This document shows positions 8,588 through 37,781 of a DNA stretch of 64,000 nucleotides, in pieces. How positions within the stretch are numbered: the first letter of the stretch is position 1; each line of letters begins with the position of its first letter. Source of the stretch: Shewanella aestuarii (lineage in GTDB: Bacteria; Pseudomonadota; Gammaproteobacteria; Enterobacterales; Shewanellaceae). The translations under genes were made by a program, and so were the position numbers. The notes under the pieces are model-generated. The model did not search any database. It saw only the letters and a list, made by a program, of their open reading frames with translations, and was not told the DNA's origin. The stretch lies in contig NZ_CP050313.1 of the NCBI RefSeq assembly GCF_011765625.1, forward strand, positions 1,112,501 to 1,176,500, written 5' to 3'.

Positions 8588-9298
8588 TTACATTCTAACT
8601 TCAACTTCGCCAATGCCAATTACCGTTGCTTCTAATTGTTTGTTTGAATTTATATTTTTGACGCTGATAGATTCGCCAATATTGCCATCGCGTAGGGCCT
8701 CACCTAAGGTTTTTATCTGCAAATGTTCAGTTTTGGCATAAATGGATACCGCATCGCCCTTACATACAAAACATAATTGGTTACCAAGAATTGGGGAGCT
8801 TTTAGCAATACGTCTTTTGGATCTTGTTCCAATGACAGCATTTGTGTCAGAAAAATATTGCCCCCGTAAACTGTATTGATCTATGTAGTCAATTTGTATT
8901 TGTTCCTCTGAAATGAGGGTGCCGGGAGCAATGACTTCGGCAGCTACGGCAACAGGATAAAGAATTTCAACTCGTACAGAGATGTAAATCAGCCAAGGAT
9001 AGTCATAATCGGGGGTGTTACAACTGACTTTAACCGTGTTGTTGCGGGCAATTTCTCGGTCACTGGCTAACGTTACTGATAACGGTTCAAAACAACGCGG
9101 AGGAACTAATCTTCCTTCAAGGTTTTGTGGGGTAATCATTAACTTAGCATTATTGTCTAGCTGAATTTTTTTTCGAATTACATCTTCAGCCATTTGGGTA
9201 ATGGTCGATATAGCTGGAACAGAAGATACTTCATTGGCATAGGACGCTAATGAATTAAACAATAAATAGCCAAAACATAAATAAATTACTTTCATCAT
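8588..9298 (-). CDS. flgA: FlgA, P-ring assembly chaperone
   Basis: Periplasmic chaperone for FlgI polymerisation. The 236-aa protein has a signal peptide (MMKVIYLCFGYLLFNSLASYA), a middle region with VPPRCFEPLSVTLASDREIARNNTVKVSC, and a C-terminal SAF domain (AAEVIAPGTLISEEQIQIDYID, then VIGTRSKRRIAKSSPIL, and a terminal AVIGIGEVEVRM-like strand). The start could be either of two adjacent ATGs (9298 or 9295). It heads flgAMN; a sigma54 site is seen 136 nt upstream. Confidence 0.92.
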   Translation of the reverse strand: MMKVIYLCFGYLLFNSLASYANEVSSVPAISTITQMAEDVIRKKIQLDNNAKLMITPQNLEGRLVPPRCFEPLSVTLASDREIARNNTVKVSCNTPDYDYPWLIYISVRVEILYPVAVAAEVIAPGTLISEEQIQIDYIDQYSLRGQYFSDTNAVIGTRSKRRIAKSSPILGNQLCFVCKGDAVSIYAKTEHLQIKTLGEALRDGNIGESISVKNINSNKQLEATVIGIGEVEVRM

Positions 9299-9619
9299 GG
9301 GGATACTAGCTTGTTTTGTGAGATTGCACCTATACTAAATTTCATCATGAGTGTTAATTAAGCTGAATCAAGTGACAATAAAATGACTAGTTTGATGAAA
9401 CAATCACACTGATCACGGTTGTTGTTATGGTTAAGCAAATAATATGCCTACAAATATGATCAATTGGGGTTGCGGCATTGATAGAGACAACACAAGTAAG
9501 TGTAACACACTAAACCATAGGGCTTACTGAGTGGTTTATTCACTTAAAGATGTATTCAGATAGGTAAAACAAGCTATTATCTATTTAGTTCAAAAATTTA
9601 ATAACAAAAAGGCAGTGTT
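9299..9619. other. Divergent intergenic region flgA / cheV
   Basis: 321 bp with no supported gene. The minus strand carries a good sigma54 site for flgA (9434-9449). I saw no convincing sigma54 or sigma28 site for cheV on the plus strand, so cheV is perhaps read by sigma70. Confidence 0.6.
9434..9449 (-). promoter_or_regulatory. sigma54 promoter of flgAMN
   Basis: On the minus strand AGGCATATTATTTGCT has GG-N10-GC, a -24 half AGGCATA (one mismatch from TGGCA) and a full -12 TTTGCT. It lies about 136 nt before the flgA start. Confidence 0.65.
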
Positions 9620-35402: not shown

Positions 35403-36473
35403 ATGACTACCTTAAAACATACCAATAAAGTATTAAGTGCTGAGGATGAGCATGAGTTCAGTCATTGGCAATTACCAGACGTGACCGAGGATAAAAGCCA
35501 AAGCCCATCTAATTTTTTTGGCCACAAGGCTCAAGCTTATCATGCTAGCGAACCCGCTGAAGAAGCTGTTCCAAGTATGCCAACCATGTCGCAACTTGAA
35601 GATATCCGCGCCGCTGCTGAGCAAGAAGGTTTTGAGCAAGGGAAGCAAGAAGGTTTGCAGCAGGGGCTTGAACAAGGCCGGTTAGATGGTTTAGCTCAAG
35701 GGCACAGCGAAGGATTTGCTCAGGGAGAGCAGCAAGGCTACGAAGCCGGATTAGCAAAAGCCAATGCTATGATTGCGCAATTTACTCAGCTTATTAAGCA
35801 TTTTGAGCAACCTTTGTCAGTCTTAGATGCTGAAGTTGAAGCGGAAATACTCGCAATGACACTCACACTAGCCAAAGGTGTTATTCAGCAAGAGTTAACT
35901 CAAAACCCACAACATATTGCCACTATTATTCGTAAAGGGATCGATGCCCTGCCTTTAAAAGAGCAAGTGGTGAAACTACGCTTACATCCAGATGATGTTA
36001 AAGTAGTGGAAGAGCTTTACGGTGAAGCACAATTAGCCAAAAATGATTGGCATCTGGAAAGCGATCCCAGTTTAGTTGTGGGTGATGTGTATATTGAAAG
36101 TTTACGTTCTACTGTCGACTTACGAGTTTCTAATCGGGTAGAACAAGTATTTTCAGCCCTTGATGCTCAGTCTGAACAATTGAGTCGGCAAGTTCATCAT
36201 ACAAAAACGGCTAATAGCCAGTATCAAACCCTCGCGGTGGATGATTTGACTGAGGCAAGGCAGCAACTCAATCAGCAAACCCAAAACTCTCTACCTAATC
36301 AACAAACATTAGTTGAAAATGACCTTCCGGAATCTGTTGCCGAATCGAATTTAGCTGAAAGTGACCCAAATGAAGCGACACAATCCCAGCTTAGCTCACA
36401 ACAATCGCAAGCACATAAAGGGCTAGAGCAAGGTGAGGCCGATGACAAACCGTCAACATCTACTGCTGAATAA
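35403..36473 (+). CDS. fliH: FliH, export ATPase regulator with long tail
   Basis: Stator-like regulator of FliI at the export gate. The 356-aa protein has a variable N-terminus, a run of GxxxG-type repeats at residues 76-116 ([18 protein letters not shown]), the conserved C-domain at about 120-255 ([36 protein letters not shown]) and then about 100 extra residues rich in Gln, Ser, Asn and Glu. The tail is not part of the family core. The 3' end overlaps the fliI start by 32 nt. Confidence 0.92.
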
Positions 36474-37781
36474 ACTAAAAGCGCATCACCAACATGTGTC
36501 GCCACTTAGACCAATAGCCAGTGGCCAATTGGTGCGTGTGGTTGGGTTAACTCTTGAAGCAACAGGTTGCCGAGCTCCCGTGGGCAGCTTATGCTCGATT
36601 GAAACCATGGCTGGTGAGTTGGTTGCTGAAGTGGTGGGTTTTGATGACAAATTATTATATTTGATGCCGGTAGAAGAGTTGCGCGGCGTGTTGCCCGGTG
36701 CAAGGGTGCAACCGTTAGGTGAGCAGAATGGCTTAAATGTAGGGTTAAGTTTGCTTGGCAGAGTGCTGGACGGTAGTGGTCAACCGCTTGATGGCCTTGG
36801 ACCATTAAATACCAATGAGCAAGCATCGAGGCATCCACCCTATATCAATCCTCTCTCACGTAGAGCTATTACTGAGCCTTTAGATGTCGGTGTGAGGGCT
36901 ATCAACGCTATGTTAACCGTGGGCAAAGGTCAACGTATGGGATTGTTTGCTGGTTCCGGTGTGGGTAAAAGTGTGTTGTTAGGTATGATGACCCGAGGAT
37001 CGAATGCCGATGTGATTGTGGTTGGCTTAGTGGGGGAGCGTGGTCGTGAAGTTAAAGAGTTTATTGAGGAAATCTTAGGCGATGATGGCCGCGCGCGTTC
37101 GGTTGTGGTGGCAGCCCCAGCAGATACCTCGCCCCTTATGCGTTTGCGAGCCTGTGAAACCTCAACCCGTATCGCAGAATATTTTCGTGATTTGGGTTAT
37201 AACGTCTTGTTATTAATGGACAGTTTAACTCGTTATGCTCAAGCTCAGCGTGAAGTTGCTTTAGCCGTTGGTGAGCCGCCAGCAACCAAAGGCTATCCCC
37301 CTCAGTATTTGCTAAATTACCTCGGTTGGTTGAGCGTGCCGGTAATGGCGGCCCAGGGCAAGGTTCAATTACCGCGTTTTATACTGTGTTAACTGAAGGT
37401 GACGATCAGCAAGACCCCATCGCGGATGCTTCACGGGCTATTCTAGATGGTCACGTTGTATTATCTCGTCGCTTAGCCGATTCAGGTCATTATCCTGCAA
37501 TTGATATCGAGCAATCGATTAGTCGTGTCGCCCCTATGGTCATTAGCGATGAGCATTTAGAGGCGATGCGCCGAGTTAAGCAAATGTATTCGCTTTATCA
37601 GCAAAATCGCGATTTGATTTCGATTGGTGCGTACTCTCAAGGAAGCGATCCGCGAATTGACAATGCCATACGTCTGCAACCTGCCATGAATGCGTTTTTG
37701 CGTCAAAATTTTAAAGAAGCCATTAGCTTTGAAAATAGCGCTATGATGATGAGTCAGATTGCCGCTCAGTGTCAGAACTAA
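36442..37781 (+). pseudogene. fliI: FliI, flagellar export ATPase, split by a one-base frameshift
   Basis: FliI powers type III flagellar export. The first frame (36442-37392) gives the N-terminal domain, Walker [15 protein letters not shown] and Walker [15 protein letters not shown], then changes at ATKGYPP into 25 unrelated residues and stops. The next frame carries [20 protein letters not shown] through the normal C-terminus at 37781. The break is in CCCCC at 37297-37301: one added C (or a -1 slip) gives [18 protein letters not shown], the exact family sequence. With it the protein is 446 aa, the usual length. No other lesion is present. ATG 36442 follows AGGTGAGG; GTG 36433 is an alternative. 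Confidence 0.93.

Follow-up and report, generated by a model that had tools for sequence, protein, structure and literature searches.

The window, that is, the whole 64,000-nucleotide stretch of DNA analysed here (C1:1,112,501-1,176,500), belongs to a 4.47 Mb genome recorded in three contigs, the smaller two of 231 kb and 212 kb, and carries the flagellar export gene fliI in two pieces that lie in different frames (Table 1). The fliI ORF (319 aa) starts with GTG at 36433, with an in-frame ATG at 36442 as a possible true start. Its frame is that of FliI up to about 37301 and is then lost, with a stop at 37392, and the remainder of FliI is read in another frame from 37302 to a stop at 37781. Scored against the NCBIfam FliI model (TIGR03496, FliI_clade1; 414 positions), the first piece reaches 398 bits and the second 241, and neither alone passes the cut-off of 619.1. 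Like members of that family, the two pieces jointly span the whole model; they differ in being recorded in two frames, each below the cut-off. Pfam PF00006 is likewise divided between the pieces (1-140 and 140-213), and the C-terminal domain PF18269 is found in the second. The first-pass annotation's claim that fliI is broken by a frame change is thereby confirmed. A profile search of the genome's contigs found no second fliI, and the other PF00006 matches (268.5, 242 and 93.5 bits) were rejected as a second copy; we take them to be AtpD, AtpA and Rho.

Table 1. Pieces of fliI (window coordinates) and other genes recorded as broken. The first stretch is the 400 kb around the window; the second is C1:100,001-500,000.
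Feature	Position	Strand	Evidence or remark
fliI first piece, N-terminal part and the larger share of the ATPase domain, in frame up to ~37301; tail out of frame	36433..37392	+	TIGR03496 1-263; Pfam
Frame-change site, five-C run and next base	37297..37302	+	Relatives: CCN CCN TCN, one frame
fliI second piece, end of ATPase domain and C-terminal domain	37302..37781	+	TIGR03496 262-414; Pfam
IMP dehydrogenase (guaB)	L129:2839-4307 = C1 ~1,055,339-1,056,807		NCBIfam; one-base loss at G run
PfaA-type synthase	First stretch		NCBIfam; looser scans, outside the count of 13
Sigma-54 response regulator, best model ntrC	First stretch		NCBIfam
Low-specificity L-threonine aldolase (ltaE)	First stretch		NCBIfam
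Oligopeptide symporter	First stretch		NCBIfam
Nucleotidase, best model nadN	First stretch		NCBIfam
Pullulanase-type enzyme	First stretch		NCBIfam
Oxaloacetate decarboxylase alpha (oadA)	First stretch		NCBIfam; looser scans, outside the count of 13
leuB	L191:3350-4410 = C1 ~243,350-244,410		One-base loss at G run
Secretin-like gene (our label)	Second stretch		

The genes around fliI are nearly all whole. At 50% identity or more, 56 window genes could be matched to the relative G020, and for 53 of these a single frame accounts for more than 90% of the gene; the exceptions are fliI, fliH (66% identity; its end is divergent) and the gene at 8591-9343, in which residues 1-30 have no alignment to G020. 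It had been argued earlier that an intact cluster favours an error in the record: the cluster is indeed intact to this extent, but the argument is a weak one, and the deciding evidence is the recurrence of the lesion outside the window, described below.

The same gene was sought in 60 relatives, 35 of them of the same genus, and in each of the 35 congeneric genomes the best match lies in a single uninterrupted frame of 446-490 aa. At the protein level, the best 120 of 8000 scored proteins are all full length (445-456 aa), and no truncated FliI twin from another strain was present among these 120, in a database clustered at 90% identity that could hide a twin inside a cluster. From at least 582 loci found, 80 named loci of wider kinship than the genus were kept; in 79 of the 80, and in 29/29 congeneric loci, the site is spanned by an open frame of at least 400 codons, and the remaining named locus (L098) ends at a contig edge. 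A literature search for a fliI frameshift in Shewanella returned nothing relevant. Within the reach of these searches, no other record shares the split. The two pieces share 94-96% amino acid identity with four near loci and 89-91% with a fifth, with dN of 0.03-0.05 and 0.08-0.09 and dS high or saturated in these near loci; both pieces are under strong constraint.

Comparison of the C run with close relatives, a check that the first-pass annotation had suggested, gave CCN CCN TCN at the site in 29/29 congeneric loci (from the 35 congeneric genomes searched), with the gene split in none. A C run of five or more occurs at this site in 0/29 of them, and six C occur in 3 of the 80 named loci (of at least 582), all in frame. 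The lost base would thus lie either in the C run or beside it, a choice that alignment alone cannot make. The earlier placing of the loss within the run is plausible, but the alignment does not force it, because the congeneric loci read CCN CCN TCN without such a run. Judged purely by analogy with other sites in the genome, a loss within the run appears likelier than one beside it.

These other sites come from a gene-by-gene DNA alignment to G020 over two 400-kb stretches, one around the window and one at C1:100,001-500,000 (351 genes; about 368 kb of aligned coding sequence). To be retained, a gene had to show at least 70% identity, measure no more than 9 kb, align over at least 80% and have clean flanks; these filters set aside 43 of the 221 matched ORFs in the second stretch and were applied equally to the first. 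The comparison yielded 13 isolated frame-breaking (non-triplet) indels, of which 11 are one-base deletions, and 10 of these 11 lie at G/C runs of 4-6 bases, against a background of 2.2-2.4% of the sequence lying no more than 3 bases from a G/C run of at least four. The first stretch (173 genes, 200,093 bases) holds nine of the indels: eight one-base deletions, each at a G or C run of four or five, and a 19-base gap in a divergent gene. The second (178 genes, 168,104 bases) holds four. Three are one-base deletions, of which one lies at a G run of five, one at a G run of six and one at no run; a T run adjoins one of the two G runs. The fourth is a five-base insertion. Three of the 13 (the 19-base gap, the runless deletion and the insertion) are therefore off the G/C-run pattern. 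By the same measure, A/T runs of at least five bases account for 5.4-5.8% of the sequence, and an A/T run is the nearest run at none of the deletions, save for the G-run site with the adjoining T run. The five-base insertion, at which there is no run, lies in a gene at L190:12316-13026 (C1 ~232,316-233,026) that, from the start of its protein, is presumably radC-like, and it may be a real change.

No isolated one-base insertions occur in this genome across the 351 genes compared with G020, and control pairs gave isolated non-triplet indels of any kind in 0/70 genes (G020 to G034) and 0/69 genes (G034 to G020). When this genome's own genes were compared with G020 in the reverse direction, 4 (first stretch) and 2 (second stretch) such indels were found, five of which coincide with known sites, the sixth being a one-base deletion in G020 without a run. 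In-frame stops are found in 0/173 and 2/178 genes of this genome, both near match ends, and in 2/183 and 3/181 genes of G020 in the other direction. Scaled from rates per 100 kb to 400 kb, the two stretches of this genome have about 11 and 18 runs of six or more G or C, versus about 23 (G020), 21 (G034) and 28 (G035) in the relatives; the depletion of long runs was considered as an error test and set aside as not decisive, the deficit being only partial.

Looser tblastn scans of the 400 kb around the window against the corresponding stretches of three relatives gave 11 splits in this genome with G035 genes, 3 with G034 genes and 12 with G020 genes, some of low identity. Outside the count of 13 are the splits of oadA and of a PfaA-type gene, each showing a loss at a G/C run, and of three low-identity genes. 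In G020, the same scans gave two splits with G034 genes and one with this genome's own genes; in each of these three splits, one piece or more stays under 60% identity. Comparison of E. coli K-12 ribosomal and rpo region genes with the second stretch matched 31 ORFs at 50% or more, 22 of them in one frame over more than 90%; one further ORF is listed as split, but its pieces show 49-51% identity and their junction lacks a G/C run of four. Among these 23 ORFs no ribosomal or rpo gene came out as broken; the other eight had incomplete coverage. G035 was rejected as a counting reference since it carries many lesions of its own: over the stretch L164-L183 of this single-contig genome, 211 genes contain 21 isolated non-triplet indels, and CCGG adjoins the gap in 11 of them. 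Our guess is that these reflect a different systematic error, perhaps involving DNA modification. Separately, the first 2.4 kb of the 231-kb contig of the present genome (L116:1-2402; C2:1-2402) match plasmids from Citrobacter, Providencia, Aeromonas and further genera at 99.6-99.7% identity, and the annotated genes there are an ABC transporter, a cytochrome c and an efflux adaptor.

The genes hit are unrelated. NCBIfam names were sought for nine broken pieces of the first stretch; eight could be named and one had no match. For guaB the genome offers a single close match, which runs out at position 432 of 450; the first piece alone still exceeds the family cut-off, and the last 52 of 490 residues of the relative's guaB fall in another frame here. 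leuB is in two pieces and no match in the genome passes its cut-off, the weaker full-length match to the leuB model elsewhere reaching 237 bits (cut-off 353). The mismatch repair genes mutS (1-839 of 840) and mutL (1-553 of 555) are whole and without internal stops.

Taken together, it is very probable that the fliI break is a sequencing or assembly error and that the cell's fliI is intact, because one-base losses at G/C runs recur in unrelated genes outside the window. This supports the first-pass annotation, which had ranked error first. A base-caller or assembler would have under-counted a short run, dropping one base at or beside the C run of fliI, and the same under-counting would explain why further genes lack single bases at G/C runs. 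Two marks of homopolymer error are found together, namely a one-base indel at a run (five C in fliI) and recurrence in unrelated genes (10 of 11 one-base deletions, 351 genes). The pattern fits uncorrected homopolymer errors, their source probably being long reads, and we infer that most likely the fault lies in the reads or assembly and that the living strain makes whole FliI. Against this, the under-counting would be only partial, G/C runs of six or more still being present, the density of lesions is unequal between the stretches (8 in 173 genes versus 2 in 178), and no ribosomal or rpo gene came out as broken among the 23 matched E. coli ORFs examined.

That the break is instead real, a one-base change in fliI having only just abolished flagellar export in the strain or switched it off reversibly, is highly improbable. 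Most of that small probability belongs to a very recent loss-of-function mutation, which would leave the strain non-motile or nearly so with a regulon that has not yet decayed. The privacy of the break among the genomes examined, the lack of a second fliI and the intact neighbouring genes are all as expected of such a mutation, yet it is very unlikely: an event specific to fliI leaves the same type of lesion in at least nine other unrelated genes unexplained, and this earlier option is unsupported. A mutator or decaying strain, in which all the lesions are real and arose through slippage, would account for many one-base losses in a single genome. This is extremely unlikely, given that mutS and mutL are whole, that the deletions fall at G/C runs and none at A/T runs despite the larger share of sequence that the latter occupy, that in-frame stops are nearly absent where real decay should bring nonsense changes too, and that guaB and leuB are among the broken genes.

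The first-pass annotation had also allowed for a reversible homopolymer switch and for recoding, neither of which gains support here. Recoding would mean that a -1 ribosomal shift or polymerase slippage yields full-length FliI from the sequence as recorded, and a -1 shift at the site would connect both conserved pieces. Slippery heptamers for -1 frameshifting follow the rule X XXY YYZ in the zero frame. The in-frame heptamer T CCC CCT does not fit it and the relatives examined need no shift (29/29 congeneric loci; 79 of the 80 named loci of at least 582, the last ending at a contig edge), so that recoding can be given almost no weight. Phase variation has precedent in other bacteria, in which, according to PMC3930126, homopolymer tracts switch the flagellar genes flgR and flgS (C. 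jejuni), flhA (C. coli) and fliP (H. pylori). The likeness to the flhA and fliP cases described there is a change of run length in an export gene that leads to a truncated product; the difference is that here the run is short, is not kept in relatives (five or more C in 0/29 congeneric loci) and metabolic genes show the same loss, which makes a switch in fliI barely credible.

With an error in the record as the preferred explanation, lone frameshifts at short G/C runs in this record should not be taken as biology. Extrapolated to 4.47 Mb, 10 losses in about 368 kb would correspond very roughly to a hundred genes split in error; guaB and leuB are probably two of these, and predictions of motility and metabolism from the record would therefore be misleading. 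Taken literally, the record would describe a strain that needs guanine and leucine and lacks flagellar export, all broken by one type of change.

Published long-read assemblies offer the comparison. In PMC12007338, A/T errors exceed G/C errors in a Nanopore assembly (Pss508), whereas here every run-linked loss is at a G/C run and, apart from the one T-adjoining site, there are no losses at A/T runs, a difference that counts against long-read error as the source. In other respects the cases are alike: indels in that assembly are mostly false deletions with a peak after runs of 4-5, and many false pseudogenes are reported for long-read assemblies in PMC8011154 (151-5298 annotated pseudogenes after Racon-Medaka correction of R9.4 data). 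As in these assemblies, otherwise conserved genes of the present genome are split by many one-base deletions, situated at runs of about 4-6 bases.
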